Shown here: piece by piece, positions 2,672 through 10,032 of the stretch
How positions within the stretch are numbered: position 1 is the stretch's first letter
Layout: each line of letters starts with the position of its first letter
DNA from: a virus
Virus record (IMG/VR): IMGVR_UViG_3300031758_000400
Coordinates: 1-29,526 of that record
DNA length: 29,526 nucleotides
Direction: 5' to 3' (one strand)
Program-made: the position numbers and the translations under genes
Notes under the pieces: generated by a model
The model's database searches: none
What the model saw: only the letters and a program-made list of their open reading frames with translations
What the model was told of the DNA's origin: nothing

Positions 2672-2890
2672 ATGTCAACAACATTCAACAAATCAGAAGC
2701 TATCGCACTTGTTAGACAAGGCGCGAAAATCACGCACTCAAATTGGGAAGCGTCAGAATTTATCACTCGTAACTGGAGAGATGGATTTTTACAAGATGAA
2801 AACGGTGTACTTAAAATCTCTACGGAGTTTTTTAAATACCAACCTGACAATGGTTACACTTTATTTGTGGAGGAGGTTGTATGCTCTTAA
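2672..2890 (+). CDS. DUF2829/Tad2-like small protein (tentative)
   Basis: A 72-residue protein and the first gene after the early promoter. The N-terminal pattern EAIALVRQGAKITHSNW (about residues 9-25) followed by short strands and an aromatic C-terminal segment (NGYTLFVEE) resembles the DUF2829 fold, whose phage members include Tad2, a sponge that sequesters Thoeris cyclic-nucleotide signals. The similarity is to the general pattern (A..L..G.k...H..W), not to binding-pocket residues I can verify. First position in an early operon is typical for host-takeover or anti-defence genes. The function is tentative; the existence of the gene is well supported by promoter and leader. Confidence 0.45.
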   Translation: MSTTFNKSEAIALVRQGAKITHSNWEASEFITRNWRDGFLQDENGVLKISTEFFKYQPDNGYTLFVEEVVCS

Positions 2891-3000
2891 TGACCGAACT
2901 TGAATATGCGGAGTTCATCACTCCATCATGGACATCCATCGCAATCTTTGCTTTCATTTTATTTCTAATCCTAATCTCTATTAAACATGACAATAAGTGA
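2890..3000 (+). CDS. single-TM microprotein
   Basis: A 36-residue protein starting at the ATG of a TAATG overlap with the preceding stop codon (an in-frame ATG at 2881 would add three residues). Residues 14-31 form one hydrophobic helix (WTSIAIFAFILFLILISI), ending in IKHDNK. The overlap suggests translational coupling with the upstream gene. Function is unknown; small TM proteins at the head of early operons often act on the host envelope, but nothing here shows that. Confidence 0.5.
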   Translation: MTELEYAEFITPSWTSIAIFAFILFLILISIKHDNK

Positions 3001-5149: not shown

Positions 5150-5457
5150 AGGTTAAAATGCCTAAATTCGAGTATCATAATTATAGTCAAATGAAACTTG
5201 AGAAAGGTCAATTTATAGTGTTGCAATCGAACTGCGCAGAGTTTAATGAGGTGTTATGGGGAGGAGTGATTTTTTATATGAATGACCTCTTCCCATTTGA
5301 CGAGTTCCAGTATCTGTTAGATGGTGGATTTATTAGAGCGCGTGAGGCAACATTAAGTGAGAAAGCAATGTGTTATCATACGTATGAGCGAACCAACCAT
5401 TCAGCTTGTTCATTAAACGGAATACAATTTTATTTAAATTATGAAGCAAGCCATTAA
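5125..5457 (+). CDS. early protein of unknown function
   Basis: A 110-residue protein with aromatic-rich sequence (MNDLFPFDEFQYLLDGGFIRARE). The start is uncertain: ATG 5125 overlaps the upstream gene by 25 bases, while ATG 5158 (MPKFEYHNY) lies eight bases after its stop and follows an A-rich leader. The C-terminus overlaps the methyltransferase start by 17 bases. No family is recognised. Confidence 0.5.
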   Translation: MVEFEHTLKVKMPKFEYHNYSQMKLEKGQFIVLQSNCAEFNEVLWGGVIFYMNDLFPFDEFQYLLDGGFIRAREATLSEKAMCYHTYERTNHSACSLNGIQFYLNYEASH

Positions 5458-6373
5458 TCAAATTTATAATGAATCATGTTTAGATACATTATCAAAAATG
5501 CCTGATAATTATTTAGATTGTGTAATTACATCTCCTCCATACTGGCAACTTCGTGATTATGGTTACGAAGGTCAATGGGGATTAGAACCAACATTTCAGC
5601 AATATCTTGAGCATTTATGGCAAATGATGGATGAAATTTATCGTGTGCTTAAACCTGAAGGAACTGTTTGGATTAATCTTGGAGATACTTACGGAGGTAA
5701 TAATTCTATGGCATCAAATAATGGAAGAGCTGGATTTGGTAATAAAAGAGAAACAATTGTAAATAGAGGAATTTCTAAATGTTTAATGCTTATTCCTCAT
5801 CGATTTGCAATTGGATGTATAGATAGAGGTTGGATAATAAGAAACGATATTGTATGGGCAAAAAGAAATGGAATGCCTGATTCAGTTAAAGATAGATTTA
5901 CTAAAAAACATGAATATTTCTTTTTTATGGTTAAGTCAGAAAAATATTATTTTGATTTGGATAGTATTAGAGATAAGCATAAATGGTCTGATGATAAAAG
6001 AAATGATGGCAAAAGACATCAATATGCTGATAATGCAAAAAGTAATAATGATGAGTGGATTGCAACAAATGCAGTATCTTTTAATCCATTAGGTAAAAAT
6101 CCTGGAGATGTTTCTGACTTTTGGGACATACCAACAAAACCAAATCGTGAATCTCATTATGCGCAATATTCTGATGATTTAATTAAAAAACCAATATTAG
6201 CTGGATGTCCTGAAGGTGGTTTAATTTATGACCCTTTCATGGGTAGTGGCTCAACCGCTGAAGCTTGTATTAGAGCAAATAGAAATTTTATTGGTAGTGA
6301 AATGTCAATAGATTATATCAATATAGCAAATAAAAGATTACAACCATTTCTAAAACAAAGAACACTATTTTAA
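5441..6373 (+). CDS. solitary beta-class DNA methyltransferase
   Basis: A 310-residue site-specific methyltransferase. TSPPYW (residues 30-35) is catalytic motif IV and DPFMGSGST (264-272) is the AdoMet-binding FxGxG region; the order motif IV then motif I defines the beta class. SPPY favours N4-cytosine modification but N6-adenine members also occur, so the base is not certain. No restriction endonuclease adjoins it, so it probably protects phage DNA from host restriction or marks it for regulation. Codons are strikingly A/T-ending compared with the neighbouring genes, suggesting recent acquisition. It overlaps the upstream gene by 17 bases. Confidence 0.88.
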   Translation: MKQAINQIYNESCLDTLSKMPDNYLDCVITSPPYWQLRDYGYEGQWGLEPTFQQYLEHLWQMMDEIYRVLKPEGTVWINLGDTYGGNNSMASNNGRAGFGNKRETIVNRGISKCLMLIPHRFAIGCIDRGWIIRNDIVWAKRNGMPDSVKDRFTKKHEYFFFMVKSEKYYFDLDSIRDKHKWSDDKRNDGKRHQYADNAKSNNDEWIATNAVSFNPLGKNPGDVSDFWDIPTKPNRESHYAQYSDDLIKKPILAGCPEGGLIYDPFMGSGSTAEACIRANRNFIGSEMSIDYINIANKRLQPFLKQRTLF

Positions 6374-6518: not shown

Positions 6519-6658
6519 CTAAAGATGAAAAGCAAAAGTTAGCTATGATATTAGCACTACTGCAAAATGAGTTTAACCAACTTAAAAAAAATGGTCAGTT
6601 TAAAGAATGTATCGGAATCGAAAAATCAATTGACATTATTAAACAAGTTTATAAATGA
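6509..6658 (+). CDS. 49-residue helical microprotein
   Basis: MALTKDEKQKLAMILALLQN... ending IEKSIDIIKQVYK, with a predicted helix-turn-helix-like pair of amphipathic helices. It overlaps the upstream frame by ten bases and the next gene by ATGA. Function is unknown; a small DNA-binding or dimerising protein is possible but not shown. Confidence 0.45.
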   Translation: MALTKDEKQKLAMILALLQNEFNQLKKNGQFKECIGIEKSIDIIKQVYK

Positions 6659-6837
6659 CTAAATGCAACGGCTACCTTTGCCCCATCAAATACCAGTGTG
6701 ATAGATTTACTTCACCATCAAAAAAAATTCAAAGCTATTTAACATCTATTCCTTATGACGACAAAAATCAACAATGTGCATTCTTTATTGATAACAGAGA
6801 TTATCAAAGAAAGAATAAATCAAATGATGTCAAATAA
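6655..6837 (+). CDS. cysteine-rich 60-residue protein
   Basis: This protein carries four cysteines in a zinc-ribbon-like arrangement (C4, C9, C15 and C41, in CNGYLCPIKYQC and QQCAFF). The pattern suggests metal binding, though no defined zinc-finger family is recognised. It follows the previous gene with an ATGA overlap and overlaps the next gene near its 3' end. Role unknown. Confidence 0.5.
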   Translation: MTKCNGYLCPIKYQCDRFTSPSKKIQSYLTSIPYDDKNQQCAFFIDNRDYQRKNKSNDVK

Positions 6838-7096
6838 TGAGCATTCAATGCATATCTTATTTGAGATTAAAGACCTATTAGCAGAGTTAAAAGGTCAAGA
6901 AATTAAAAACATCGAAGCGGCGTTTCGTGAAGGTTACATGACTACCGACCGATGGTCACTTGAACTGGAAGTGTTTGACCATATCAAAATGCGTTATGAC
7001 CAGGACACAATGACTTACGATGAGTATGACGCGGCTAAAAGAAGTGCTAATTTCTTTAGAACAAATTTTGGTACAGAGGAGGTGACAAATGGGTAA
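6824..7096 (+). CDS. early protein of unknown function with AFREGY motif
   Basis: A 90-residue protein when started at ATG 6824 (or 6827), just inside the end of the cysteine-rich gene; the frame is open upstream to 6755 but that would overlap the neighbour by 83 bases, so the later start is preferred. It is acidic and helical, with EAAFREGYMTTDRWSLELE (about 33-51) and a second helix YDAAKRSANFF. The AFxEGY element recurs in the protein at 7477. No family is recognised. Confidence 0.5.
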   Translation: MMSNNEHSMHILFEIKDLLAELKGQEIKNIEAAFREGYMTTDRWSLELEVFDHIKMRYDQDTMTYDEYDAAKRSANFFRTNFGTEEVTNG

Positions 7097-7301
7097 AACA
7101 TCAGTAAAATTCTTAAAAGACGAATTAAGTAAAATAATGAAATTAGATGATAGAGCATTATCATTATTTGTAGTCGCTGAAAATATTAATCGAGAACAAT
7201 TAGTTTATGCATATAAATTAGGTGTAAATGAAAAAGATTTGGAGGATGAATTATTAGATAAATTTGAAAATGCGCATCCATTTTTTAATGATATTTATTA
7301 A
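7089..7301 (+). CDS. small early protein of unknown function
   Basis: A 70-residue acidic protein (MGKTSVKFLKDELSK..., ending FENAHPFFNDIY). Its start is preceded by GAGGAGGTGA at 7077-7085, a strong Shine-Dalgarno-like stretch that is exceptional in this window, although it also encodes EEVT of the upstream gene. The sequence DDRALSLFVVAENINREQL suggests two helices. No family is recognised. It is the last gene before the tRNA-like element. Confidence 0.5.
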   Translation: MGKTSVKFLKDELSKIMKLDDRALSLFVVAENINREQLVYAYKLGVNEKDLEDELLDKFENAHPFFNDIY

Positions 7302-7341
7302 TAATCTATAAAGTAAATTCTCTGCAATCTGTAAAACGGTC

Positions 7342-7460
7342 GACCAGTTGGTGTAAGCGTGAATGAATAGCGCCTTGGGGAACAACCATATAGCTTTAAT
7401 TAATAGGTTTTTTGAAGCGTGGAAAATATGGGGATGAGAGTTCGAATCTCTCACTGGTCA
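7342..7460 (+). ncRNA. tRNA-like RNA, non-canonical
   Basis: The 3' part is a textbook tRNA end: T-stem GAGAG/CTCTC with loop TTCGAAT (7436-7452), then ACTGGTC (7453-7459), which pairs fully with GACCAGT at 7342-7348, and discriminator A7460; CCA is not encoded. At 119 bases it is too long for a normal tRNA. Between the ends I can fold a D-like arm (GGTGT 7350-7354 with GCGCC 7370-7374, 15-base loop), a tiny hairpin TTG-GGGAA-CAA (7375-7385) and a long arm replacing the anticodon arm (CCATAT/ATATGG plus GCTTTAA/TTGAAGC). No standard 7-base anticodon loop is found. It may be a tRNA mimic, a degenerate tRNA or one with an insertion. Confidence 0.55.
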
Positions 7461-7476
7461 CAAAAATTTAAATACT

Positions 7477-7704
7477 ATGACAACAATTCAAAAGTTAAAA
7501 CAAATCCTTGACGAAAAAGGAATTATGGGAGTAGGTGATTACTTCAAAGAAAATGCTTGGGAACTTGAAATGGAAGAGCAACGCATTATCCAGGATGCTT
7601 ACAACACCGCATACCTCGAAGGTTACGAATATGCCAACGCAACAGATTATAAATCGCCCAAATCAGGCGGTGATTATTACCACGAAAAATTCTTAAACAA
7701 ATGA
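7477..7704 (+). CDS. small early protein of unknown function
   Basis: A 75-residue acidic protein following the tRNA-like element by 16 bases with an A-rich leader. It contains IIQDAYNTAYLEGYEYAN (about 35-52), whose AYxEGY element resembles AFREGY in the protein at 6824, and ends SGGDYYHEKFLNK. It overlaps the GH5-like gene by ATGA. I know similar small proteins only as hypothetical phage genes. Confidence 0.55.
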   Translation: MTTIQKLKQILDEKGIMGVGDYFKENAWELEMEEQRIIQDAYNTAYLEGYEYANATDYKSPKSGGDYYHEKFLNK

Positions 7705-8975
7705 ACGGAGAAGTTATTAAAGATAGTAGCGGTGAGTGGCTAATTAAATACACCTACCTGACTGAAGATAAACAAGCAATCTCACACGATTTGCCCATAC
7801 ATCCATATTACAAAAAGTACAACTGGACTGTTGGTGATATTGTGAAATTCCAGTATGCAAAAGAATGCATCTATCATTATCCGCATCAATGCACTTGCCT
7901 TAATTCGACACTTTATGCACTTCCAGTTGTGCAACCTAAAAGCAAATTTGACTTATGGCTATTCATTATTACATTAGTTGCTTTTATTCTAATGCTATCC
8001 CAGGCATTTGGACAAGGTGTAACTATTATGTCAGGTAGTGGAAGTAAAGCTGATGTTGCCTATCTTAAACAATGCAATGTCCAAAACTTGCGCATCATGA
8101 TAAAGCCATTAGATCGCGCTAAAAAATTTAAGATATCACCTGATAGTGCGTTTAAAGTAGAATTGAACTGGGCTTTGAGATTAGTTGACGAATGCAACGT
8201 TCAAGGCATCAAACCAGTTGTTGCATTTAATGACCTATCATTTGATACTATCACGGATGAAATGCCGATGTTTTGGGCGGATACTAACTACCTGAACAAA
8301 GCTTATAAATACATCGACCAAGTAGGTGCAAAGTTTGCAAACAAGGTTTACATCTATGAGTTCCTTTCCGAACCAGCAATAAAATTAAAAGATACGGTTA
8401 TAAGTCCTCCACGTTTGGAAGAGTTTTACATTAAAGCACTTGCCATTATACGTAAGCGAGATAATAAAGCTTTATTTATGCTTACACCTGGTGCTTATGG
8501 ATTGCCTACAAACTACGGAAAGTTTTTGCCCTTTAATATTATGGATAGTAGTTTAATTTACAACTTTCATATGTATTTGCCGTTTAACTATACACATCAA
8601 GGTTTGAAAGGTCGCCCGAAAGGTATTGATTATCCTTTACCAAACTTTAATGCAGACACTATTTTAAAGCGATTTAAGGCGGTTAAGAAGTGGAGTGATA
8701 ATCATGGCTACCCAATTTATTTGGGAGAGTTTAACGCAGTCAGATGGTCTAAAAATAGTAGTGCTTATGTTCAGGATGTAATTAATGCGGCTAACCTATA
8801 CGGATTTGAATGGTGCTATTTTGCTTACAAACCAAATTTTTATGCGTGGAATCCGTTTTTTGATATCGCTAATCCTACAAAAAATCCAACTAAATACTAT
8901 TTAAAAAATTATGGCATCGATAGTCAGCACTGGCTAATGCTAATCTATTATTTACAAAATGGAAACACTAATTAA
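7701..8975 (+). CDS. membrane-anchored GH5-like glycoside hydrolase fusion
   Basis: A 424-residue fusion. Residues 1-80 form a small domain (IKDSSGEWLIKY, cysteines C57, C64, C66); 84-104 are a hydrophobic segment (LWLFIITLVAFILMLSQAFG) acting as TM anchor or internal signal; 105-424 resemble glycoside hydrolase family 5. Family residues visible are R131 (NLR), the acid/base E224 in LSEP, H290 and Y292 in FHMYLP with THQG after, the nucleophile E343 in YLGEFN, and W371. The usual N before the acid/base is replaced by S223. The catalytic domain would face the periplasm or outside. Substrate is unknown; host surface polysaccharide is a reasonable inference. The gene overlaps its upstream neighbour by four bases. 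Confidence 0.75.
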   Translation: MNGEVIKDSSGEWLIKYTYLTEDKQAISHDLPIHPYYKKYNWTVGDIVKFQYAKECIYHYPHQCTCLNSTLYALPVVQPKSKFDLWLFIITLVAFILMLSQAFGQGVTIMSGSGSKADVAYLKQCNVQNLRIMIKPLDRAKKFKISPDSAFKVELNWALRLVDECNVQGIKPVVAFNDLSFDTITDEMPMFWADTNYLNKAYKYIDQVGAKFANKVYIYEFLSEPAIKLKDTVISPPRLEEFYIKALAIIRKRDNKALFMLTPGAYGLPTNYGKFLPFNIMDSSLIYNFHMYLPFNYTHQGLKGRPKGIDYPLPNFNADTILKRFKAVKKWSDNHGYPIYLGEFNAVRWSKNSSAYVQDVINAANLYGFEWCYFAYKPNFYAWNPFFDIANPTKNPTKYYLKNYGIDSQHWLMLIYYLQNGNTN

Positions 8976-9562: not shown

Positions 9563-9785
9563 ACTTAACGAATATCCATTTGATGAAATGAATAAGCGCG
9601 AGCGCGACAACCTCGTTAATGCCTTACGCGATGAATTAGCTAAACTTACATGGCGAGAAATTGCCTGGACAGTTTGGGGCAACGTGTGCATCTCACTTAT
9701 GGTAAAAGATGAATTTTACTTTTTTAGAATTATTGAAATTGATAACCATTTAATACTACTTGAATATGACGGAACTGCGTCTTAA
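9540..9785 (+). CDS. small early protein of unknown function
   Basis: An 81-residue protein; ATG 9540 or 9546 both work (MTMKFIFKLNEYPFDEM). It has a charged helix (NKRERDNLVNALRDELAKL), then a WREIAWTVWGNVC segment and beta strands. It overlaps the endolysin by 23 bases and the next gene by 20. No family is recognised. Confidence 0.5.
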   Translation: MTMKFIFKLNEYPFDEMNKRERDNLVNALRDELAKLTWREIAWTVWGNVCISLMVKDEFYFFRIIEIDNHLILLEYDGTAS

Positions 9786-10032
9786 AAAAGAATTCGAGAT
9801 GAACCTCGAAGCTCAATTAATGCATCTTGAAAAGATAGATGCTTATCGTGAAAACATCATGCTTAATAACAATCTTACTTTGCATGAATTTACAAATGCC
9901 TTGCGCATCAATCAGCACCAGCAAGAGATTAATAAACTGCAAGAAAGAAATCGTTTAATTGATACTTATTTAACAGAACTATGGAAAACAGAATTAAAAT
10001 CGAAAAACTTAAAAAAGAAGTTGAAGAGTTAA
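9766..10032 (+). CDS. helical coiled-coil small protein
   Basis: An 88-residue highly charged helical protein (MTELRLKKEFEMNLEAQ..., ending KTELKSKNLKKKLKS). The frame also opens at TTG 9760, but the ATG two codons later is preferred. It overlaps neighbours on both sides. Leucine-rich heptads suggest self-association. Function unknown. Confidence 0.5.
   Translation: MTELRLKKEFEMNLEAQLMHLEKIDAYRENIMLNNNLTLHEFTNALRINQHQQEINKLQERNRLIDTYLTELWKTELKSKNLKKKLKS

Follow-up and report, generated by a model that had tools for sequence, protein, structure and literature searches.

The current work identifies a family of phage RNAs that resemble tRNAs in the acceptor stem, T-arm and elbow, carry an additional hairpin within the D-loop, and are very probably non-decoding. 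After merging pattern scans of viral contigs with the results of a covariance model, the family counts at least 55 distinct sequences, spread over 79 viral records. One member lies in the stretch of DNA analyzed here (the window, all 29,526 bases of a viral record), which contains a phage module of terminase, tape measure, primase-helicase, endolysin and SSB genes. The RNA is fairly likely to act in trans and to work through the D-loop hairpin as its head. The elements of the window RNA are listed in Table 1.

Table 1. Elements of the tRNA-like RNA of the window
Element	Positions	Strand	Remarks
Whole tRNA-like RNA	7342-7459	+	118 nt; discriminator A at 7460; CCA not encoded; 79.3 bits with model R1 (window among 28 training sequences)
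Acceptor stem, 5' strand GACCAGT	7342-7348	+	Partner 7453-7459; double changes across relatives at all 7 pairs
T8 G9, D-stem 5' strand GTGT (7351-7354), A14 A15	7349-7356	+	T8 and A14 in 55/55; A15 opposite T48 in 51/55
Hairpin inserted in D-loop, stem GCGT/GCGC, loop GAATGAATA (7361-7369)	7357-7373	+	Stem covariation and loop conservation
Spacer CTT, G18G19 region GGGG, A21, D-stem 3' strand (7382-7385)	7374-7385	+	10-25 pair not conserved
Anticodon-arm slot, 46-nt bipartite arm CCATAT...ATATGG	7386-7431	+	Without 5-bp + 7-nt anticodon arm
Short variable loop GGAT, T48 at 7435	7432-7435	+	
T-arm GAGAG-TTCGAAT-CTCTC	7436-7452	+	Double changes at 4/5 pairs
Acceptor stem, 3' strand ACTGGTC	7453-7459	+	Covariation

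The first-pass annotation of the window had proposed an acceptor stem and a T-arm, and both were confirmed at the positions tabulated; the acceptor stem encloses 104 bases, not the 105 that it counted. Its remark that no canonical anticodon loop is present also holds. The D-like arm that it described is in fact a D-stem together with a separate hairpin in the D-loop, and the bases of its three-pair mini hairpin belong to the G18G19 stretch of the D-loop, which forms no helix in most relatives. Of its long bipartite arm, the outer helix CCATAT/ATATGG is present and conserved, and the inner GCTTTAA/TTGAAGC is kept in the relative L002 but re-written in L001. The combination of a perfect T-arm with a suitably spaced acceptor of 7 Watson-Crick pairs has a single instance in the window; of 1000 first-order Markov shuffles of the window, 2 contained it. 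The minimum free energy of the RNA is mildly unusual (z = -1.9), and in the window's own minimum free energy fold an alternative pairing takes the place of the D-loop hairpin. ARAGORN and Rfam searches of the window made no call at 7342-7459.

An exact 18-mer search returned 8 viral contigs. RNAs with wholly different acceptor stems were recovered from viral contigs by the pattern of the D-loop core, and three further scans enlarged the set; one scan used the D-arm sequence on both sides only and left the inserted part free. The covariance model R1 was built from 28 of the 55 distinct sequences, the window included. Membership was defined by an acceptor stem, a D-loop hairpin with RAATRAATA, a stem in the anticodon-arm slot, a T-arm, and an R1 score above about 70 bits. 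Members score 73-98 bits (the window RNA, a training sequence, is among them), the next best match reaches 48.6 bits, and the true tRNAs that these phages carry stay at about 40 bits or below. Training sequences match by construction, and members outside the training set (e.g., L075, L128, L135, L151) score like them. Because the family was collected with patterns taken from its own conserved core, the D-arm appears more conserved than it is, and the family less diverse.

No member was found in Rfam, in cultured phages (INPHARED) or in plasmids (PLSDB). The core pattern found none in 84,980 species genomes, where its two matches (L155, L156) fail model R1, and a model search at E 1e-8, run without a positive control, found none in 395 Bacteroidota genomes. 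As known here, the family occurs in uncultured viruses only. Automatic tools miss such RNAs or label them tRNA-Gln, tRNA-Met, tRNA-Phe or tRNA-Pyl; in some relatives, the ARAGORN 'Gln' calls set the anticodon in the D-loop spacer. The open-access literature searched, with subscription journals mostly outside the search, contains no description of the family, and the passages that a word search retrieved from a review of non-canonical tRNAs (PMC7609411) do not mention a hairpin insertion in the D-loop. Judged by the open-access literature, non-decoding tRNA-like phage RNA is a known kind, whereas this family, with its D-loop hairpin, appears to be new.

The fold is supported by two covariation tests on a MAFFT alignment (A2) of related sequences, in which change counts are not independent events. 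For the structure named beforehand, 97.6% of cells were paired, compared with 74.0% in shuffles and 36-53% when the structure was slid; double-changed cells numbered 142, compared with 38.1 in shuffles and 13-30 when slid, and affected 13 of the 20 pairs. RNAalifold, given no structure, arrived at the acceptor and T-arm as well as the D-loop hairpin and the slot stem; of its 21 pairs, 18 were double-changed. The first-pass annotation had suggested looking in relatives for compensatory changes and for a normal tRNA at the same locus; the former were found, and no case of the latter was.

In tRNA numbering the RNA is regular, with the acceptor at 1-7/66-72, T8 and G9, a D-stem at 10-13/22-25, a stem at 27-31/39-43 and a variable loop of 4 nt whose last base is T48. 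Two D-stem pairs, 11-24 and 12-23, never vary; 13-22 alternates between U-A and U-G, and 10-25 shows no conservation. The elbow contacts between the D- and T-loops (8-14, 15-48 and 19-56) are present, as judged from sequence only. At 19-56, 42 members have G-C, three (L037, L038, L070) have A-U and two (L150, L145) have U-A. The pair is ambiguous in L145 and the related L049 and L144 owing to a loop insertion, L049 and L144 having no clear pair; in six other members a one-base insertion probably accounts for the apparent mismatch. These base-pair changes are suggestive of a tertiary contact.

The inserted hairpin, of 17 nt with a 4-bp stem, lies between A15 and G18, at the point that would read TAA-TTGG in a normal Gln-like D-loop. 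Its stem covaries (T-A/C-G and G-C/C-G/U-G), and its loop reads RAATRAATA in 54 of the 55 distinct members; in the loop-blind scan the same loop was found in 31 of 32, with L093 as the exception. A probable hairpin-less relative is the 71-nt tRNA-like RNA at L038:4567-4637(-), in which the same D-arm, TGGTGTAA|TTGGTAACA, is uninterrupted and the anticodon loop has 6 nt. Two other explanations of the insertion were rejected. A bistable D-arm, in which GGTG pairs with CACC, is broken in members with TGATG, whereas the inner hairpin always pairs. A stop codon (UGA/UAA) in the loop as a release signal has the A/G alternation in its favor and nothing more.

In the window, the RNA sits in a 175-nt gap between genes on the same strand (7089-7301 and 7477-7704). 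Between the window and the L001 group it is 85% identical, whereas the stretches on either side (6712-7339 and 7465-7937) have no detectable match and synteny returns further out. Conservation between diverged flanks implies that the RNA is its own unit of selection. Matches of the window primase are mostly phages of Cellulophaga, Polaribacter and Bacteroides (29-33% identity among the matches listed), which makes a Bacteroidota host likely for this phage; the phages of the family probably infect Bacteroidota. About half of the fetched loci scanned also contain a tmRNA or further tRNAs, as many as 24; the rest, like the window, show none. Some members lie within arrays of 10-24 true tRNAs and others stand alone. 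Three phage contigs (L141, L143, L058) hold 22-24 ARAGORN tRNAs inside about 15 kb, and in L049, L051, L144 and L145 a phage tmRNA (with tags such as ANMNKVFSLIREEVAVAA) lies near the tRNA-like RNA.

The commonest neighbor across the set is a family of small Cys-rich proteins, present in 12 locus groups and including L089:3153-3368; a look-alike in the window (6655-6837) was assigned to it by eye. A Pfam scan of these two proteins gave no match. In a survey of neighbors at the family loci, no gene family borders most members, so adjacency does not indicate a protein partner. Several other differences and genes were seen around the window locus. The site of a DNA methyltransferase gene (window 5441-6373, compared with L002:549-1407) holds other ORFs in L002 and L004, a gene swap between relatives. 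L007, otherwise the same as the window over 5.7 kb, lacks 145 bp (window 9722-9866). The gene at 7701-8975, adjoining the endolysin gene, encodes a glycosyl hydrolase family 5 (cellulase) domain.

Action in trans is suggested by the different gene contexts of the members. Alternatively, the RNA could be an element that acts in cis on processing or stability: RNase P and RNase Z would cut a polycistronic phage mRNA at the tRNA-like fold, releasing an RNA without function. The position of the window RNA in a gap between same-strand genes fits this reading, and a free acceptor sequence and anticodon are what would be expected of mere punctuation. However, punctuation requires the acceptor and T-arm alone, which leaves the nearly invariant hairpin loop unexplained, and members also occur among 10-24 true tRNAs, which are themselves processing sites. 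The cis-acting element is thus considered unlikely, though it fares better than the other alternatives.

The loop of the hairpin is short, single-stranded and invariant, as would suit the seed (RAAURAAUA) of an antisense small RNA, and the G form, through its AAUGAAU, is complementary to CAUUCAUUU in one Bacteroidota 23S rRNA. A loop of the A form, however, would mismatch this site, and one 7-mer match across some 4.5 kb of rRNA is close to what chance would give. Across 0.72 Mb of member loci, complementary 8-mers showed no enrichment (188 compared with a mean of 166; rank 88 of 420 permutations). An antisense role is therefore improbable.

The slot normally occupied by the anticodon arm is 15-54 nt long across members, with loops from 3 nt upward and a stem that is kept and covaries. 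An arm of 5 bp with a 7-nt loop is possible in 27 of the 55, with T33 in 18 of those, and the other 28 have no such arm. Acceptor pairs use many combinations, and any base may be the discriminator. A working tRNA that decodes through this arm, with the D-loop hairpin as an intron or a tolerated insertion, is nevertheless suggested by two observations: removal of the hairpin gives the standard D-loop TAA|TTGG, and a large subgroup (L075, L089, L105 and others) has a Met-like CTCATAA, while others have TTTTAGA or CTTGTAG. Against it stand the free drift of slot length and loop, which makes decoding very unlikely, and the close relative of the Met-like subgroup, L135, which reads CTTATAA. Variation in acceptor and discriminator follows no pattern, the window RNA has no Rfam tRNA match even at E 10, and neither a bulge-helix-bulge nor a self-splicing intron was seen. 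Excision of the hairpin as an intron would, moreover, restore no anticodon. A working tRNA is thus very improbable, and the earlier proposal of a tRNA mimic without a decoding role is supported. The same proposal had placed the novelty in a replacement of the anticodon arm; the slot is still a stem, an unconstrained one, and the conserved novelty is the D-loop hairpin. As its loop is fixed while slot, acceptor and discriminator vary, selection acts on the elbow and the hairpin, not on amino-acid identity or codon.

A degenerate tRNA or pseudogene, the main alternative of the first-pass annotation, would agree with the missing anticodon and with the adjoining tRNAs in some phages, but is barely credible and is ruled out for the family by compensatory changes in the acceptor, T and D-hairpin stems, as well as by the conserved island between diverged flanks, though it could apply to single members such as L093, in which the loop is lost.

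Among known RNAs, the canonical tRNA (RF00005) shares with the family the 7-bp acceptor, the 5-bp T-arm with a TTCRANN loop, T8-A14, A15-T48, D-stem pairing of 11-13 with 22-24, G18G19, and a 5-bp stem in the place of the anticodon arm. The family differs from it in the D-loop hairpin and in having no conserved anticodon or 7-nt loop; the window has no 5-bp anticodon arm with a 7-nt loop and U33. The window does not match the RF00005 model, and 29 bits are reached by a minority of relatives only. Like the family, tmRNA (RF00023) combines a tRNA-like end of acceptor and T-arm with a non-canonical middle, but the window family has no conserved tag reading frame or long pseudoknotted body. With Rfam at E up to 10, the window RNA matched no tRNA, and its T-arm alone was matched, as a tmRNA fragment (7.3 bits, compared with a threshold of 47). 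A tmRNA with a very short tag was rejected, as the frame GUA-AGU-GGG-AAU-GAA-... shows no conserved stop or tag among members. Viral tRNA mimicry is also represented by the tRNA-like structures of plant RNA viruses, which form the 3' termini of RNA genomes; the window matched none of the Rfam families of this type.

The nearest precedent is found in RNA C and RNA D of Escherichia phage T4 (species 1 and 2 RNAs, 139 and 119 nt). These small stable RNAs come from the T4 tRNA region and their role is unknown (PMC3014915, PMC9697503); they are classed as late RNAs, checked by Northern blot (PMC9697503). RNA C likewise ends in a T-arm, CCGGG-TTCGAAT-CCCGG, but neither RNA has the D-loop-hairpin motif. 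Part of RNA C scored 14.8 bits with model R1, and RNA D was not reported by the model; these results do not indicate homology.

A second odd tRNA-like RNA was observed, often close to members of the family, at L052:413-515, L082:2137-2241 and 2414-2517, L086:1983-2088(-), L108:2659-2761(-) and 2821-2924(-), L070:1431-1577, L126:2099-2190, L092:2005-2111(-) and L135:1151-1257. Its acceptor is often AGTCAGG/CCTGACT, with a Leu-like D-arm, TGGCGGAA-TTGGTAGACGC, and a T-arm ACAGG-TTCGAAT-CCTGT. Between D-arm and T-arm lie 40-90 nt without a clear anticodon arm, and some copies look pseudoknotted.

For the trans-acting RNA favored here, the following course may be proposed. The RNA would be transcribed together with adjacent genes. 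RNase P and RNase Z need the acceptor-T-arm helix, and since this helix is kept in every member, the host enzymes would be expected to excise the RNA. It would then fold into an L, with the extra hairpin projecting from the elbow. Acceptor, discriminator and anticodon are free to vary, unlike the fixed elbow and hairpin, so the working parts are presumably the elbow and the loop of the hairpin. The RNA would most plausibly bind a host factor that detects tRNAs through the elbow, and the loop of the hairpin would make the specific contact. As a last, tentative step, the role that seems most plausible is that of a decoy or antagonist, for example of tRNA-targeting defence or of the translation machinery. 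The decoy idea is reasonable since phage tRNAs have been proposed as counter-measures to tRNA-cutting defences (PMC10264068).

The family may possibly represent a new class of phage effector RNA, in which a hairpin mounted on the elbow of a non-decoding tRNA would, during infection, neutralize a host tRNA-recognizing system (a tRNA-targeting defence nuclease, the ribosome or an elongation factor); this putative role is doubtful enough to be put forward with caution. The mislabelling or missing of such RNAs by automatic tools distorts phage tRNA counts. Tens of variants, a covariance model, a fixed loop and predicted key parts make the role of such RNAs testable. If the proposal is true, phage tRNA arrays would hold RNA decoys besides spare tRNAs.
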